In this document: positions 49,377 through 57,202 of the stretch, piece by piece
Position numbering within the stretch: position 1 is the stretch's first letter
Layout: each line of letters opens with the position of its first letter
NCBI GenBank assembly: GCA_017455525.1
Contig: JAFTAP010000058.1
Span: 1-57,428 of the forward strand
DNA from: Lachnospiraceae bacterium
Lineage (GTDB): Bacteria > Bacillota > Clostridia > Lachnospirales > Lachnospiraceae
DNA length: 57,428 nucleotides
Direction: 5' to 3'
Position numbers and translations under genes: made by a program
Notes under the pieces: generated by a model
Database searches by the model: none
The model's input: only the letters and a program-made list of their open reading frames with translations
What the model was told of the DNA's origin: nothing

Positions 49377-49913
49377 TTATTGGTTATTAGCCATCTGTTT
49401 TACCTTCTGCAAGGCTTTATTAACCGGTGGCAGCGAGATGATGACAAGAGTTATCACCATTTCAAGCCCTATGTAAGCTATATTGTAGACTGCGGAATAA
49501 ACGACCGGCGCCCAGCCGTCAGGGGCGTACTCTCCGAAGAAAAGCCAGCCTGAAAGGAATGAAAACAGCCATCTGCCAAGGCAGCCAACCGCATACCCTG
49601 TCTGAAGCCCGAATTTCTTCTCCGCAAAGAAACCCGAAAGCCCAAGCGCTCCGAAGGCCAGCGGATAATCGACTATAACCTGTAAAGGATAGACTATATA
49701 AGGTCCCGTAACGAACTGCAGTATGCCGTAAGCTACAGCCGATATAAGCCCTGTCTTCCAGCCGTAGAAGTATCCCGGCAGACAGGCAAAGAGCATGGAG
49801 CATAACGTTACCGATCCGCCCATAGGCAGATGGATCAGCTTCACCATATTAGTAACGGTGGCGAGTGCTATACAGATAGCAGAAAAAGTAAGCATTTTGA
49901 CATTCTTAGACAT
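49377..49913 (-). CDS. thiT: Thiamine ECF transporter S component ThiT
   Basis: ThiT (178 aa), six-helix membrane substrate-binding subunit of an energy-coupling-factor importer, giving thiamine specificity. Recognisable by LIHLPMGGSVTLCSMLFACL and GPYIVYPLQVIVDYPLAFGALG, which include the thiamine-site residues of the family. A TPP riboswitch immediately upstream, overlapping the SD, confirms the role. The shared EcfAA'T module is not in the window. Confidence 0.95.
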   Translation of the reverse strand: MSKNVKMLTFSAICIALATVTNMVKLIHLPMGGSVTLCSMLFACLPGYFYGWKTGLISAVAYGILQFVTGPYIVYPLQVIVDYPLAFGALGLSGFFAEKKFGLQTGYAVGCLGRWLFSFLSGWLFFGEYAPDGWAPVVYSAVYNIAYIGLEMVITLVIISLPPVNKALQKVKQMANNQ

Positions 49914-49916
49914 AAT

Positions 49917-50007
49917 GACCTCCCTACGCCGGCATTATCCGGTTCAAGTAATAAGGGTCCCCGATTTGCTCGGGCTCTCAGCTATAATCAGCTCCCCCGG
50001 TATTTGA
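49917..50007 (-). promoter_or_regulatory. TPP (THI-box) riboswitch
   Basis: On the minus strand the conserved blocks appear in order: GGGGGAGC, GCTGAGAG, ATCGGGGACCCTT, and CCGGATAATGCCGGCGTAGGGA. The last block merges into GGAGG, the thiT ribosome binding site, seven bases before the ATG. Binding of thiamine pyrophosphate would therefore hide the SD (translational OFF switch). Confidence 0.95.
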
Positions 50008-50018
50008 TTGCACAGGAC

Positions 50019-50330: not shown

Positions 50331-53006
50331 GTGATTATGAGCAAAGAACTCGCTAAAACCTACGATCCCAAGGGCATAGAGGATGCCCTTTATAAGAAGT
50401 GGGAAAAAAAGAAATATTTCCATGCTAAGCCTGACAGGTCGAAGAAGCCTTTCACTATAGTAATACCCCCGCCGAATATCACGGGGCAGCTTCACATGGG
50501 GCATGCCTTAGACAATACTATGCAGGACATACTGATCCGCTTCAAGCGGATGCAGGGCTATAATGCGCTCTGGCAGCCGGGAACCGACCATGCGAGCATA
50601 GCTACCGAGGTCAGGATAATAAATACGCTGAAGGAACAGGGCATAACCAAAGAGGACTTAGGGCGCGAGAAGTTCCTTGAGAAATGCTGGGACTGGAAGA
50701 AGGAATACGGCGGACGGATAGTCAGCCAGCTAAAGAAGCTCGGCTCTTCCTGTGACTGGGACAGGGAGCGCTTCACGATGGACGAGGGCTGCAACAGGGC
50801 GGTCAATGAAGTCTTTGTAAGGCTTTATGACAAGGGGCTTATCTATAAGGGACAGAAGATGATAAACTGGTGCCCTGTCTGCCTTACGACGATATCCGAT
50901 GCCGAGGTTGAATATGAAAATCAGAACAGCCACCTCTGGCACATCAAATATCAGATTATAGGAACCGATGACTACCTCACATTCGCTACGACAAGACCAG
51001 AGACTATGCTTGGCGATACGGCTGTCGCTGTGAATCCGAATGACGACAGATATAAAGACCTTGTCGGTAAGAAGGTTATGCTCCCGATAATGAACAGGGA
51101 GATGCCTGTAGTCGCTGACGACTACGTGGATATGGAGTTCGGGACCGGCGTCGTGAAGATAACTCCCGCACATGATCCTAACGATTTCGAGGTCGGAAAG
51201 AGGCATGATCTCGACATAATCAATATTATGAATGACGATGGCACGATAAATGAGAATGGCGGCAAGTACGCCGGAATGGATCGTTATGAGGCGAGGAAGG
51301 CTATCGTAAAAGAGCTTGACGAGATGGGGCTCCTCGTAAAGATAGAGGATTATTCTCATGATGTGGGAACGCATGACAGATGCCATACGACGGTAGAACC
51401 GTTAGTCAAGGAGCAGTGGTTCGTAAAGATGGACGAGCTTATACGCCCTGCCGTAAACGGCGTGAAGAACGGTGATATACGGCTCGTACCCGAGAATATG
51501 GAGAAGACTTACTTTAACTGGACGGATAATATAAGGGACTGGTGCATATCAAGGCAGCTTTGGTGGGGACACAGGATACCCGCCTATACCTGTGATAAAT
51601 GCGGAGAGCTTATAGTATCAAGGAATAAGCCCGATAAGTGCCCTAAGTGCGGGTGCAAAGCGGAGCATCTGATACAGGACCCCGATACGCTTGATACGTG
51701 GTTCTCGTCCGCACTCTGGCCCTTCTCGACGCTTGGCTGGCCTGACGAGACGGAGGAACTAAAATATTTTTATCCGACAGATGTCCTTGTCACAGGCTAT
51801 GACATCATATTCTTCTGGGTAATAAGGATGATATTCTCCGGCTATGAGCAGATGGGGAAGGAGCCCTTTAAGACGGTCTTATTCCACGGGCTTGTAAGAG
51901 ACGAAAAGGGACGCAAGATGTCAAAGTCCTTGGGCAACGGCATAGATCCCCTTGAGGTCATAGATAAGTACGGGGCAGATGCGCTCCGCTTCATGCTGAT
52001 CACCGGCAACTCTCCGGGAAATGACATGAGATTTTCTTACGAGAAGGTCGAGGCAGCGAGGAACTTTGCGAATAAGATATGGAACGCTTCGCGCTTCATT
52101 CTGTTAAACATGGACGGTAAGACCGTGACGAAGCCTGATATGAAGGATCTTGCGCCTGTGGACCGCTGGATACTCTCGAAGATGAACCGCATCGTAAACG
52201 AGGTCACGGAAAACATGGAGAAGTTCGAGCTGGGCGTCGCTGCGGCTAAAATCTATGATTTCATCTGGAGCGAGCTTTGCGACTGGTATATCGAGATGGT
52301 GAAGCCCCGGCTTTACAATACGGACGATAAGGAATCACAGAATGCGGCATTATACACGTTAAAGAAGGTGCTCATAACTTCGCTTAAGCTGCTGCATCCG
52401 TACATGCCCTTCGTCACGGAGGAGATTTACTGCACGATAAAGGAAGAGACGGATGACAATGACATGGACGAATCCATAATGATATCGGACTGGCCGGCAT
52501 ACGATAAGGAGTATGACTTTGCATCTGACGAGAAGAGCATAGAGATAATAAAGGAAGCTGTGAAGGGCGTAAGGAATGTCCGTTCCGGGATGAACGTACC
52601 GCCTAAGAAGGCGGCGGACGCTACGGTGGTATCAGATAATCAGGACGTGCTTGATTCCTTCAAGGCGGGAGAGCTTTATTTCAAGTCTTTGATAAATGCT
52701 CCGACTGTCACGTATCAGACCGATAAGGCGGGCATACCTGATGATGCGGTGTCGGTTGTCACGGGCGCAGCTACCGTTTATATTCCTCTCGCAGAGCTTA
52801 TAGATCTCTCCGAAGAGATAGCGAGGCTTGAGAAGGAGGAGAAGAGGCTTGAGGGCGAATTAAAGCGCTCTAACGCCATGCTTTCAAACGAGAAGTTCTT
52901 GTCAAAGGCTCCGGCGGAGAAGATAGCGGAGGAGAAGGAAAAGCTTGCGTCTTACGAAAAGATGATGTCCGAGGTCAGGGAAAGACTTGCGGGATTAAGA
53001 AAATAA
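50331..53006 (+). CDS. valS: Valyl-tRNA synthetase
   Basis: Class I aminoacyl-tRNA synthetase (891 aa). HIGH-type motif PPPNITGQLHMGHALDN, editing domain (TTRPETMLGDTAVAV), zinc site CDKCGELI ... CPKCGCKAE, KMSKS loop GRKMSKSLGN, and the C-terminal coiled-coil tRNA arm (LIDLSEEIARLEKEEKRLEG). GTG 50331 is six bases after AGGAG; ATG 50337 is a near alternative. Confidence 0.97.
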   Translation: MIMSKELAKTYDPKGIEDALYKKWEKKKYFHAKPDRSKKPFTIVIPPPNITGQLHMGHALDNTMQDILIRFKRMQGYNALWQPGTDHASIATEVRIINTLKEQGITKEDLGREKFLEKCWDWKKEYGGRIVSQLKKLGSSCDWDRERFTMDEGCNRAVNEVFVRLYDKGLIYKGQKMINWCPVCLTTISDAEVEYENQNSHLWHIKYQIIGTDDYLTFATTRPETMLGDTAVAVNPNDDRYKDLVGKKVMLPIMNREMPVVADDYVDMEFGTGVVKITPAHDPNDFEVGKRHDLDIINIMNDDGTINENGGKYAGMDRYEARKAIVKELDEMGLLVKIEDYSHDVGTHDRCHTTVEPLVKEQWFVKMDELIRPAVNGVKNGDIRLVPENMEKTYFNWTDNIRDWCISRQLWWGHRIPAYTCDKCGELIVSRNKPDKCPKCGCKAEHLIQDPDTLDTWFSSALWPFSTLGWPDETEELKYFYPTDVLVTGYDIIFFWVIRMIFSGYEQMGKEPFKTVLFHGLVRDEKGRKMSKSLGNGIDPLEVIDKYGADALRFMLITGNSPGNDMRFSYEKVEAARNFANKIWNASRFILLNMDGKTVTKPDMKDLAPVDRWILSKMNRIVNEVTENMEKFELGVAAAKIYDFIWSELCDWYIEMVKPRLYNTDDKESQNAALYTLKKVLITSLKLLHPYMPFVTEEIYCTIKEETDDNDMDESIMISDWPAYDKEYDFASDEKSIEIIKEAVKGVRNVRSGMNVPPKKAADATVVSDNQDVLDSFKAGELYFKSLINAPTVTYQTDKAGIPDDAVSVVTGAATVYIPLAELIDLSEEIARLEKEEKRLEGELKRSNAMLSNEKFLSKAPAEKIAEEKEKLASYEKMMSEVRERLAGLRK

Positions 53007-53071: not shown

Positions 53072-53212
53072 ATGATCGATTTTGAAGAGGAACTGAAGAA
53101 ATTCCATCCCTCGCCTGAGGTGGAGGATGCGGAGAGCCAGATAAGGGCGCTTGATGTCACCGATATGGTCGACCTCATAGTACATCTGGAGGAGAGAAGC
53201 GTCGCCAGATGA
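53072..53212 (+). CDS. Hypothetical 46-aa protein
   Basis: A small acidic protein beginning MIDFEEELKKFHPSPE and ending VDLIVHLEERSVAR. Its TGA overlaps the next gene's ATG (ATGA at 53209-53212), strong evidence that it is translated and coupled to the zinc-ribbon TPR gene. AAGGAC lies upstream. No family recognised; helical in appearance, no membrane segment. Confidence 0.75.
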   Translation: MIDFEEELKKFHPSPEVEDAESQIRALDVTDMVDLIVHLEERSVAR

Positions 53213-54849
53213 GATGTTTTAATTGCGGGGCGGAGCTTACTGCGAATCCATTCTGCACGAACTGCGGCGCCGACATAAGAGAATACAGACGCATAATATG
53301 GACTTCGAACCAGTACTATAATGACGGACTGACGAAGGCGAAGGTGCGGGATCTTTCGGGAGCCGTGCTGTCATTGCGCGCCTGCTTAAAGCTGAACCGC
53401 ATGAATATAGAGGCGAGGAACCTCTTAGGACTCGTATACTTCGAGATGGGCGAGGCGGTTGCGGCTTTCTCGGAGTGGGTCGTATCAAAGAGCATGAAGC
53501 CGGAGAAGAATATAGCCGACGACTTCATGGAGACTATACAAGGAAACCCTTCAAGGCTTGATACGATAAATCAGTCGATAAAGAAGTATAATCAGGCGCT
53601 TCTTTATGCGAAGCAGGGAAGCCTTGACCTTGCCGTGATACAGCTTAAAAAGGTCCTGCATATGAATCCTAACCTTATCGTGGCATACGAGCTTTTAGGA
53701 CTTTTATATCTGCAGTCAGAGGAGTTTGCGAGGGCAAAGAGGATAATAAGCAGCGCCTTAAAGATCGACAGGAATAATACGAGGCTCCTTTATTATCTGA
53801 AAGAGGCGGAAGAAGGCATAGCCGCACGCTTTGCGAGTGAGCCGGCAGCTTCAAGACGCAGGAAATCAGGGAGCAGGACGAGTCAGGACGCCATAACCTA
53901 TACGAGCGGGAACGAGACTATAATCCAGCCCGTGAACTCAGTTGAGAGACATAGTTCCTCGGCTATATTTAACATACTTATAGGAGCCGTGGTGGGAGCC
54001 GCATTGATCTTCTTCCTCGTGCTTCCGGCACGTATCAGGAAGGCATCGGAGGATATGAATGCGCAGATAAAGGAAGTCAGCGATGAGCTCACCGTAAAGA
54101 ATGCCGACATAGAGGAGCAGGATAAGCGTATAGAAGCTCTGCAGACAGAAAATGACGAGCTTAAGGGAAGCCTCGGAGACCTTGCCGGAAGCTCCGGTAT
54201 GGCGGAGCGATATGATGCTCTTGCTGAAGCGGCGCTTAACTATATGCGAAATCCTGATGACGTGACGGGAACGGAAGCCTTGCTTTCAAGGATACCTATA
54301 GAGACGGTTTCGGGCAACGGTATGAGCCTTGCCATAAGCTCCAATACGGTGTCGAAGCTTGATCCCTCGATATATTCACAGGCGTTCCGTAATCTTTATG
54401 ATTATCTGGATAGCGACGTTGCGGTGAGGGCGGCAAGGACATATATAGACAGGGGTAAAGAAGAGCTTGAGAATGAGGAATACCAGCTTGCGATAGCGGA
54501 TCTCCTGCGCGCTACGGAGATAGCGCCTTCAAGTGATGAGGCACTATTCTATCTTGCGGAGAGCTATAAGGAATCGGGTGACAGCGTGCATGCGACCCAG
54601 GCGTACAGCAGGCTCGTGAATGAGATGGGAGACTCCGAGTATGCTGACAGGGCGAGGTCGAACCTGACTACGGGGGCCGCCACGGATAATGATGCTCAGA
54701 ATAATGATAATAACGACGATGCCGCCGGACATGAGGATGAAGGCGGTGATGACGAGGATACCGGAGCAGAGGATGAGGATGCGGCAGCACAGGCTCTTGC
54801 TATGCAGATACTTGCGGGAGCGGGAAATAACGGAGCCGGAGCGGAGTAG
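53209..54849 (+). CDS. Zinc-ribbon TPR membrane protein
   Basis: A 546-aa protein: N-terminal zinc ribbon (CFNCGAEL ... CTNCGADI), tetratricopeptide repeats (about residues 30-205, e.g. ALLYAKQGSLDLAVIQLKKV), one membrane helix (about 252-269), a coiled coil (about 275-330), a further TPR pair (about 405-480) and a very acidic Asn/Asp/Glu-rich tail. One TM with TPRs on both sides suggests a scaffold linking cytoplasm and cell envelope. Coupled to the 46-aa gene upstream and five bases ahead of the phosphoesterase-like gene, so the four genes 53072-57202 form one operon. Confidence 0.8.
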   Translation: MRCFNCGAELTANPFCTNCGADIREYRRIIWTSNQYYNDGLTKAKVRDLSGAVLSLRACLKLNRMNIEARNLLGLVYFEMGEAVAAFSEWVVSKSMKPEKNIADDFMETIQGNPSRLDTINQSIKKYNQALLYAKQGSLDLAVIQLKKVLHMNPNLIVAYELLGLLYLQSEEFARAKRIISSALKIDRNNTRLLYYLKEAEEGIAARFASEPAASRRRKSGSRTSQDAITYTSGNETIIQPVNSVERHSSSAIFNILIGAVVGAALIFFLVLPARIRKASEDMNAQIKEVSDELTVKNADIEEQDKRIEALQTENDELKGSLGDLAGSSGMAERYDALAEAALNYMRNPDDVTGTEALLSRIPIETVSGNGMSLAISSNTVSKLDPSIYSQAFRNLYDYLDSDVAVRAARTYIDRGKEELENEEYQLAIADLLRATEIAPSSDEALFYLAESYKESGDSVHATQAYSRLVNEMGDSEYADRARSNLTTGAATDNDAQNNDNNDDAAGHEDEGGDDEDTGAEDEDAAAQALAMQILAGAGNNGAGAE

Positions 54850-54854
54850 GTAAA

Positions 54855-55883
54855 TTGAAGCTTATTCATGTATCGGACATACATCTGGACATACCGTTCG
54901 GTGGGATGCTTCCGCCGGAGAAATCAGCGACGAGGAAGCAGGAGATAATATCTGCTTTCGAGCAGATGATAGAGTTCGCCGTATCGGAGGATGCGAAAGC
55001 AGTCCTGATCACAGGCGGTCTTATAGATGCGGAGCATATATCGAGGACTACGATAGACAGAGTCTATACGGCGATAAAGAGTGCCCAGGGTATAGAGTTT
55101 GTGCTGCTTCCGGGCAATTCTTATGAGTCCGCTTTCTTTTCGGTCGAAAAATATCTGCCCGATAATCTTAAGATATTAAGCGAGCTTGAAAAGAAGGTCA
55201 CTATAGATGACGTTGATATTTACGGCGTGTACGAGGCGACAAAGCTTCCTTTATTCGACGACAAGCAGTTAAATATCGTGCTTGCATCGGGGCTTTTGAA
55301 TCTAAGGGGCTTCGAGGAGCGTGGCATATCTTATTTAGGGCTTGGACTTGAGAGGACATACAGGCACGGTGAGCTTAAGGGAGGCGGTTATTTCTGCGCT
55401 CCGGGGTCTTTAGAGTCCCTTGCCTTTGACGAGGGCGGAAATAAGGGCTTCATGGAGATATACACGGTGGGAAAGCGGCTGTCGCCTGTGTTCGTGCGCA
55501 GCGGAAAGAGGCTCTGCTACGAGCTTGATCTTGATATAACGGGAGTCGGCGGCTCTGATGCCGTAGTCGAGAATGCGAGGCGGGAGCTTGGCGGCATGCC
55601 GGGAATAAACGGTGCGGCAATGGTTCATGTGAACCTTACAGGCACTATGGACTTGAATCACATCATAGATAATAAGGTGTTGGAAAAGGCTTTGGGCAGG
55701 GAGTACTTCGCAGTATCTGTCACGGACGAGATCGTATTCGACGTGGACGGAGAGAGCCTTACGGAGAATTCGTTAAGGGACCGCTTCATAAAGAGGGTCA
55801 GTGAGGGAAATGAGTCGCTTGACTTAAAGAAAGACATAATAAGGGCGGGTATAACCGCCATAACGGGAGGAGACGTATTTTGA
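54855..55883 (+). CDS. SbcD/Mre11-like phosphoesterase, degenerate
   Basis: A 342-aa calcineurin-like phosphoesterase fold of the SbcD/YhaO type (HVSDIHLD start; APGSLESLAFDEGGNKGF near the end of the domain). Only the first metal motif DxH is intact. GDxxD is TGGLID, GNHD is GNSYE, the later His-containing strand is VLASGLLN, and GHxH is GLERTY. At least four metal-binding positions are thus lost, so nuclease activity is unlikely. TTG start, six bases after the preceding gene. The next gene overlaps by four bases and encodes a degenerate SbcC-like partner. Confidence 0.8.
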   Translation: MKLIHVSDIHLDIPFGGMLPPEKSATRKQEIISAFEQMIEFAVSEDAKAVLITGGLIDAEHISRTTIDRVYTAIKSAQGIEFVLLPGNSYESAFFSVEKYLPDNLKILSELEKKVTIDDVDIYGVYEATKLPLFDDKQLNIVLASGLLNLRGFEERGISYLGLGLERTYRHGELKGGGYFCAPGSLESLAFDEGGNKGFMEIYTVGKRLSPVFVRSGKRLCYELDLDITGVGGSDAVVENARRELGGMPGINGAAMVHVNLTGTMDLNHIIDNKVLEKALGREYFAVSVTDEIVFDVDGESLTENSLRDRFIKRVSEGNESLDLKKDIIRAGITAITGGDVF

Positions 55884-57202
55884 GGATATTAAGTATCCAT
55901 ATAGATGGATTCGGAAATCTGAAAAATGCAGATTATGTTTTCTCACAGGGAATGAACATCAAAGAGATAGGCACTGTCTGGGACAGGTCTGCCATCTCTG
56001 AATTTATTATCGCAATGATATTCGGGCTTGACGGGCAGCAGAAGGTGAGGGCGCAGTACATACCGAGAGACGGAGCAAGCTTCGGAGGCTCCATGACTGT
56101 ATCCGCAGAGGGCAGGGAATACAGGATAACAAGGACTTTCGGCACTATGGACGCTTCCATGGATACCTGTAAGCTGACGTCCGAGATCGATGGCTCGCCT
56201 ATGGGCTTCGAGCCGAATTATTTCATGGGAGTGACGAGGGATCAGTATGTGAGGAACGCCACGATAATAGACGGCACGTCTTATGATGATTACTCCATGC
56301 ACGACAGGAACCTTCTTATGTCTCTTATCAATGCTGAGGAGGAGAGGACGTTGTCAAAGAGAAGCCTTGAGGCACTGCAGAGGGCGGAGACGAGGCTTAC
56401 CCGCGGAGGCTCAAGGGTTACCGAGGAGGCAAGGTACAAGGAGGAACAGAAGCAGTATGAGCTTCAGGAGGAATTAAAGCGCTGCAAGCAGAAGAGCGAT
56501 GACGTCAAGGTGCTCCGCGAACAGGAGGCGGAGGCGGTAAAGACGCTTGATGAGAAAAAAAATATAATGGATGAAGCCGAGGATAAGGTAAGTAAGGCAC
56601 AGAATGTAAGAAGGCAGAATACCCAGCATTTCTTAAGTCTTGCGCTGGCTCTCCTCTGTCTTATCGGGGGATTGGGACTCGTGCTTGCGGGAGTAGTATT
56701 CAGATTTGAGATGCCGGGAGCCGTGAATGGTTCCTTTGATACCATCTATGACGGCTTCCTGCTTTTGTTATTCGCCCTTTTCGTATTTTATTTCAGGAGA
56801 CAGTGGAGAAGGAGGCAGGAGAAGAAGCTGGATGCCTTGCGAGGCGCTGCCGATGAGAGCAGGCAGGAGTACGAGGCGGTGCTTGCGGTCGTGAATGGCA
56901 TAGGTGAGCAGATAAAGGAAGTCTCTATCGATGCGGACAGGGTAGGTGAAGCGTCGGACGCTTTGGAGAACTTTAAGCACAGGGTTGAGATAGAGAGGAG
57001 GCAGCTTCGGGTAATAAGAGGCGCAAGGAAATACATACAGGCCGCAACCGAGGAGGCGGGACATGAGTCGTCAAGGATAATGGAGGCTTTTTCAAGGGAG
57101 ATGCCTATGCTTATAGTCATGGACGTATTCTCTGATCATGCACTGGCGCGCGAGGTATTCGGCAGGACTGCGGACAGGTTTCAGGTTATTTATCTGACTT
57201 AG
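55880..57202 (+). CDS. SbcC/YhaN-like protein lacking Walker A
   Basis: A 440-aa protein with an SbcC/Rad50-YhaN-type start (RILSIHIDGFGNLKNADYVF) but GTVWDRSAISEFIIAMIFG where a P-loop GxxxxGKS should be. A coiled coil (about residues 160-245), two membrane helices (about 249-275 and 289-308), a second coiled coil and a short C-terminus follow. The C-terminus keeps only traces of the Walker B region (MLIVMDVFSDHALAREVF ... RFQVIYL) and no LSGG signature. ATP binding is therefore doubtful. TTG start with GGGAGGAGA, overlapping the phosphoesterase-like gene. Ends the operon. Confidence 0.78.
   Translation: MRILSIHIDGFGNLKNADYVFSQGMNIKEIGTVWDRSAISEFIIAMIFGLDGQQKVRAQYIPRDGASFGGSMTVSAEGREYRITRTFGTMDASMDTCKLTSEIDGSPMGFEPNYFMGVTRDQYVRNATIIDGTSYDDYSMHDRNLLMSLINAEEERTLSKRSLEALQRAETRLTRGGSRVTEEARYKEEQKQYELQEELKRCKQKSDDVKVLREQEAEAVKTLDEKKNIMDEAEDKVSKAQNVRRQNTQHFLSLALALLCLIGGLGLVLAGVVFRFEMPGAVNGSFDTIYDGFLLLLFALFVFYFRRQWRRRQEKKLDALRGAADESRQEYEAVLAVVNGIGEQIKEVSIDADRVGEASDALENFKHRVEIERRQLRVIRGARKYIQAATEEAGHESSRIMEAFSREMPMLIVMDVFSDHALAREVFGRTADRFQVIYLT

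Follow-up and report, generated by a model that had tools for sequence, protein, structure and literature searches.

Why would bacteria keep a Mre11/Rad50-like gene pair in which both partners have lost their catalytic motifs? The question is raised by the right end of the window, i.e., the whole stretch of DNA analysed, a complete contig of 57,428 bp from a 2.72-Mb draft genome that is 93% complete. There, a row of five genes starting with valS (50331-53006) encodes an SbcD-like protein of 342 aa (hereafter D; 54855..55883, + strand, TTG start) and an SbcC-like protein of 440 aa (hereafter C; 55880..57202, + strand, TTG start). The two frames overlap by 4 nt, as they do in 12 of 12 orthologous pairs, and the coordinates and frames that an earlier note had given for this pair proved right. 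We consider it probable that the locus encodes a co-translated, membrane-tethered Mre11/Rad50-like pair that has turned into a non-catalytic scaffold.

Motifs and architecture of the two proteins

The phosphoesterase motifs I-V are DxH, GDxxD, GNHD/E, H and GHxH. Alignment with homologues revealed that five of the eight catalytic positions of D are replaced in all 12 full-length orthologues: the metal ligand Asp55 of motif II is Gly (55017..55019), the catalytic His89 of motif III is Ser (55119..55121), His145 of motif IV is Ser (55287..55289), and GHxH of motif V reads GLER, with Leu for His165 and Arg for His167 (55347..55355; all + strand). These replacements are identical in 12/12, the sole exception being a Met for Leu at position 165 in one orthologue. 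Retained are D8 and H10 of motif I and D58, the second Asp of GDxxD, while N88 of GNHD is Asn in 10 of the 12 and Ser in two. The earlier note had read GDxxD, GNHD and GHxH as degraded, which the alignment bears out, and the loss of motif IV comes on top. Its statement that only DxH is kept holds for D8 and H10, but "only" goes too far, given D58 and the frequent N88.

In C, the former P-loop (GTVWDRSA, 55970..55993, + strand) reads TVWDRSA where intact proteins read NGWGKST, and none of the 14 orthologues has G-K-[ST] in this stretch. Compared with intact congeners, about 60 residues, the signature segment among them, are absent or no longer recognisable (gaps of 4, 54 and 5). What is left of the C-terminal ATPase lobe, directly behind the missing signature segment, comprises the Walker B strand and the last strand (57104..57199, + strand). 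The Walker B strand is LIVMDV versus VILDDV, with one of the two acids kept, and the protein ends at QVIYLT, short of the last residues conserved in intact relatives. The description of C as lacking P-loop and signature and keeping a trace of Walker B was thus accurate. Judging from these residues, the head of C would be unable to bind ATP and D would be dead as a nuclease in the test tube.

D stays below the cut-offs of its families (29.3-29.9 bits against 77.65 for TIGR00619; 21.0 against 21.5 for Pfam Metallophos), and the YhaN-type Pfam family AAA_27 does not match C of the window, two relatives giving E values of 0.0026 and 0.00043, below the cut-off. As such weak family scores alone are no proof, kinship was taken from profile comparison with intact congeners. 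Using hhalign, D aligned to the intact congener profile over 337 of 342 columns (E 6.5e-49, probability 100), and C over 436 of 440 columns (E 1.7e-46, probability 100) to a congener profile that takes in P-loop-intact Cs of genomes with a damaged D; the main gap in C was the signature region. Against solved structures, the window profile of D gave weak Mre11 matches only (best E 0.022) and that of C nothing Rad50-like; the congener profiles of D and C match SbcD and Rad50 structures. The near full-length profile matches indicate that the predicted folds of both proteins survive.

A membrane hairpin (56645..56797, + strand) with helices at approximately 256-274 and 287-306 lies between the coiled-coil halves of C. 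The earlier note had assigned two membrane helices; the first passes a plain hydropathy scan and is the only one to do so in the window protein, whereas the second fails there, passes in 4 of the 14 orthologues and corresponds in the alignment to helix two of intact relatives. In a scan of 75 C-like proteins, 72 proved to have one or more strong hydrophobic helices breaking up the coiled coil, the other three being two contig-end fragments and the C of genome G219. As intact proteins are among those with a hairpin, membrane attachment is not the new trait. Window C has no CxxC zinc hook (its only Cys residues are at 97, 202 and 260), the hydrophobic hairpin standing at the apex.

The best conserved 15-residue stretches of C (168-191 and 351-366) flank the base of the coiled coil, the site of Mre11 binding in MR complexes. 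The C-terminal segment of D (55752..55880, + strand) aligns with the C-terminus of intact relatives, and the equivalent part of Mre11 binds the Rad50 coiled coil. We infer that D and C still bind each other. It is unlikely, in our judgement, that the old active sites have been rebuilt for another ligand. Such new chemistry would fit the identity of G55, S89, S145, E166 and R167 as well as D8 and H10 in 12/12, and conservation in the former P-loop stretch (28-42) reaches 0.89, above the 0.67-0.87 of the nine parts into which C was divided. However, the clade shows no variation at 168 of the 342 D columns, so that a few invariant columns are weak evidence, and without D55 and the four His the ligands left would be D8, H10 and N88.

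We tentatively class the pair as YhaON-like, on the general features of that system and the weak AAA_27 scores of relatives. YhaO/YhaN (SbcE) of Firmicutes, like the window locus, pair adjacent SbcD-like and SbcC-like genes, the latter for an ATPase whose coiled coil has a hydrophobic hairpin at its midpoint. In the 39 family genomes read, C comes after D. The likeness is by descent, D and C being homologous over their full length to the intact proteins of the same neighbourhood, and extends to the adjacent D-C order and the membrane hairpin (its second helix weak in the window). In contrast to YhaO/YhaN, the window pair lacks P-loop, signature and nuclease residues, and its C has 440 aa versus 544-974 aa in the 39 family genomes. 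With SbcCD/Mre11-Rad50 it shares the fold by profile, the D-C pairing and the DxH motif; it differs in having a hairpin instead of the CxxC zinc hook, in the loss of both active sites and in a D below the TIGR00619 cut-off. YhaN of B. subtilis is reported to be SMC-like and to act in break repair and competence. For B. pumilus, yhaO and yhaN are listed under LexA/SOS and are reported to be induced by H2O2 (PMC3896406). A LexA-type box in the exact form GAACNNNNGTTC is absent from the window. No doubly inactive Mre11/Rad50 pair was found in the literature searched, outside which most subscription papers lie, so this is weak evidence of novelty. A defence system was considered and rejected: PADLOC matched C weakly to JetC only (E 0.00039), and at E 0.01 neither D nor the TPR protein encoded upstream was matched.

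Selection on the doubly dead pair

The pair lacking both activities' motifs is common to 14 genomes (species) of one Lachnospiraceae genus. C is full-length in all 14 (438-440 aa) and D in 12; G231 has the first 166 aa and a 76-aa piece on another contig, and G212 the last 136 aa. The relatives include Lachnospiraceae bacterium AC3007 (L104), whose record carries no MAG label, and MAGs, and several named ones have rumen or goat-abomasum sources. Among these Lachnospiraceae homologues the losses are thus shared and the gene pair is kept, overlap included, the two points that the earlier note had wanted checked.

Codon models gave dN/dS values of 0.053 for D (n=12) and 0.064 for C (n=14) in this clade, next to 0.085 for the neighbouring TPR gene (n=12) and 0.042 for ValS (n=9). 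The values are no higher than those of intact congeners (D 0.064, C 0.073; n=7 each). For most pairs dS approaches saturation, an effect absent only from the nearest ones (dS ~0.5-1.2); the nearest of all, G216/G236, gave 0.035 for D and 0.039 for C (NG86) at dS 0.72 and 0.54, respectively. Relative to rpoB distance, protein distance within the clade was 3.04 for D and 4.07 for C, compared to 3.31 and 4.44 in the intact group (11 dead and 6 intact genomes). Change was faster between G230 and the clade (D 4.89, C 6.82 per rpoB distance): a burst of change at the transition was followed by ordinary constraint.

Shared losses and purifying selection together support the claim that the pair has been conserved while losing its catalytic motifs. 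A dN/dS near 1, which the earlier note had named as speaking against its reading, is far from what was found. It had also suspected a recent pseudogene should homologues beside the same neighbours retain the motifs. Such homologues with an intact D do exist (G210, G240, G215), but a loss common to 14 species, with divergence like that of the intact group, is old and maintained, and a pseudogene was rejected on both counts. That the genes are decaying, or an assembly artefact, is very improbable: the motifs and most of the C-terminal lobe are indeed gone, yet open frames of nearly equal length persist in 12 (D) and 14 (C) species, AC3007 included, at dN/dS of 0.05-0.06.

Apparent order of the losses within the genus

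Among 48 genomes of the genus, 38 have matches to both D and C, four to neither, two to D only (both at contig ends) and four to C only. Those with neither at the thresholds used are G203, G224, G225 and G227, which implies that the function is not required genus-wide. The four with C only (G220, G221, G237, G238) carry long frames of 888-926 aa and no match to window D.

D matches occur in 40 of the 48 genomes. In the 26 outside the doubly dead clade, a D of the native type is intact in 12 (that of G234 is cut at a contig end) and damaged in eight; a 94-aa fragment in G218 was left out of the reading. G230 retains motif I alone, G200, G202 and G245 retain D8 and H89, G228 retains D8, and G217 retains D8, H10, H145 and H167; the D of G219 (262 aa) keeps D8 and D55, and that of G223 has lost only H89 and H145. 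A longer family-type pair, intact as far as read, is found in G222, G213, G243 and G214, with a fragment in G207. In the five genus genomes that carry it (L114, L116, L118, L124, L125), this longer pair has a C of 774-791 aa and other neighbours and is perhaps a replacement by transfer.

The P-loop of C is intact in G230, G200, G202, G228, G217, G219 and G223 (first 191 residues); a C was not found in G245. NGWGK[ST]T is kept in 7/7 Cs read from damaged-D genomes, and the signature segment and DD Walker B in 6/6 for which the C-terminus was read. These pairs (G230, the G200 group, G217, G219 and, in part, G223) resemble the window in their lost nuclease residues and differ from it in keeping the P-loop, so the nuclease was damaged without loss of the ATPase, which is lost in the window clade only. 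The series suggests an origin from an intact membrane-anchored pair of that gene neighbourhood, which would have passed through a form with damaged nuclease and intact P-loop to the double loss. The losses therefore appear ordered, nuclease first and ATPase later, with nuclease damage apparently recurring in the genus. In the G200 group, purifying selection acts on the damaged D as well (dN/dS 0.064, n=4), the value for its C being somewhat higher (0.114, n=3).

G219 is another reductive path. Its locus (L127:3688-5693) encodes the 262-aa D with damaged nuclease and a C of 406 aa with intact ATPase motifs and no membrane helices. Since it has lost both the helices and ~80 D residues, neither is indispensable throughout the genus.

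On both gene trees, of D and of C, the window clade has G230 as its sister (100/99 and 100/100), long branches meeting in both; the rpoB tree puts G230 together with G222 and G213 in a trio that is sister to the clade (95/95). The damaged-D lineages are scattered on the rpoB tree, where the fewest unordered changes number three, G222 and G213 being left out of this count as they carry another type of pair. With irreversible losses, a hand count on the same tree gives five (window plus G230, the G200 group, G217, G219 and G223). A single damaged group was not rejected by the AU test on the D tree (p 0.27; 18 rows, without G219). Independent losses are favoured by the C tree, which sets G200, G217 and G219 apart from G230 and the window, and by the different catalytic residues retained in G217 and G223. 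In motifs II and V, G230 and the G200 group have residues in common, and their damage could share one origin or reflect exchange.

Outside the genus, all D motifs are kept in 38 of 39 family genomes and partly altered in one (G044), the 39 loci having been taken from 62 outside-genus genomes with a match. An order-wide search matched 62 of 295 genomes, the window's own included; among 29 loci of other genomes, 27 were readable, and the eight residues are kept in 27/27 (four of these genomes are also among the 39). Within the sample read, repeated nuclease damage as predicted from the residues is a feature of this genus.

Possible roles and the gene neighbourhood

The nuclease and then, it appears, the ATPase were lost under undiminished selection, which would mean that the pair is selected for something else, and we infer a scaffold or sensing role. 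In the non-catalytic scaffold that we favour, the SbcC-like chain would be anchored in the membrane by the hairpin that caps its antiparallel coiled coil and would carry a P-loop-less head, while the C-terminus of the SbcD-like chain would bind the coiled-coil base, this chain forming the body of the assembly. The pair would neither cut DNA nor cycle ATP; it may hold or recognise something at the membrane, be it a DNA structure or a protein, and cutting would be left to a separate canonical SbcCD where present. Speaking against a pure scaffold are D8, H10 and the one Walker B acid, which a scaffold need not keep.

A wider reading, which we regard as possible rather than probable, holds that this MR-type complex lost its nuclease in several independent events and its ATPase in one, each state being kept by selection, and that its job was never cutting: it would be a membrane receptor or tether, with the enzymes only as regulators. 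If so, the window clade would have an MR-type assembly without any catalysis. Related species offer a natural separation-of-function series of one membrane-anchored pair, which occurs intact, with a damaged nuclease or doubly dead; purifying selection has been measured in the first and last of these and in one group with a damaged nuclease. The series lets one ask directly what the pair, little studied so far, does besides cutting DNA, and it suggests that a Mre11/Rad50-like architecture can outlive both of its activities.

Pseudoenzymes often tune active machines, and the dead pair could likewise bind and regulate one, the simplest candidate being the cell's own canonical SbcCD. An SbcD above the family cut-off is present in five of the 14 clade genomes (G079, G206, G232, G241, G242), with motifs I-V in the four read, as in that of G230. 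We nevertheless think a regulatory partnership improbable: no canonical SbcD exceeds the cut-off in the other nine clade genomes, several of them incomplete, and the window's own assembly, at its 93% completeness, yields no further SbcD match. A YhaN-like C is matched once only in each of the 14, and dead and canonical D are probably too unlike for mixed dimers.

The genes around the pair differ between lineages. In G210, G240, G215, G223 and G219 the order is (valS-)FapA-46-aa ORF-TPR-glycosyltransferase-D-C-(S1 protein), except for parts beyond contig ends; G230 has FapA, the 46-aa ORF, TPR, D, C and the S1 protein, the glycosyltransferase being absent. The window clade lacks FapA, glycosyltransferase and S1 protein altogether and has a DegV gene 3' of C where the contig extends. 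Elsewhere in the genus, on the G200/G208 side, D-C lies beside the glycosyltransferase, two GTPases, EngB and Lon (names assigned by eye from sequence). Such variation would suit two proteins that still fold but work apart, their joint complex having been lost. This we hold to be quite unlikely, considering the constant 4-nt overlap, the 38 of 48 genus genomes with both genes, and the conserved D C-terminus and C coiled-coil base.

Directly upstream, a zinc-ribbon/TPR protein with one membrane helix (256-274) is encoded at 53209..54849 (+ strand; Pfam TPR, hydropathy), its stop 5 nt before the SbcD-like gene. It was considered as a dedicated third subunit and rejected: it adjoins D-C in the window clade, but is matched in 47 of 48 genus genomes, among them the four without D or C. 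Given its presence in nearly all of them, linkage is no evidence of a complex, and the TPR protein is a neighbour rather than a proven partner.

A 46-aa ORF (MIDFEEELKKFHP...; 53072..53212, + strand) overlaps the start of the TPR gene. According to tblastn, it precedes that gene at 19 genus loci including the window, with 51-98% identity in the other 18; it is too short for the usual length limits, yet conserved in the genus. At the contig end (57294-57428) lies a Clostridiales-1 RNA (RF01699), cut by that end. At least 40 long copies of it occur in the draft genome (40 of 101 candidate places scored); they are 104-149 nt long, nearly all 99-100% identical and in many cases at contig ends. This highly multiplied, near-identical RNA probably broke the assembly. 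A TPP riboswitch (RF00059) is found at 49904-50008 on the - strand.
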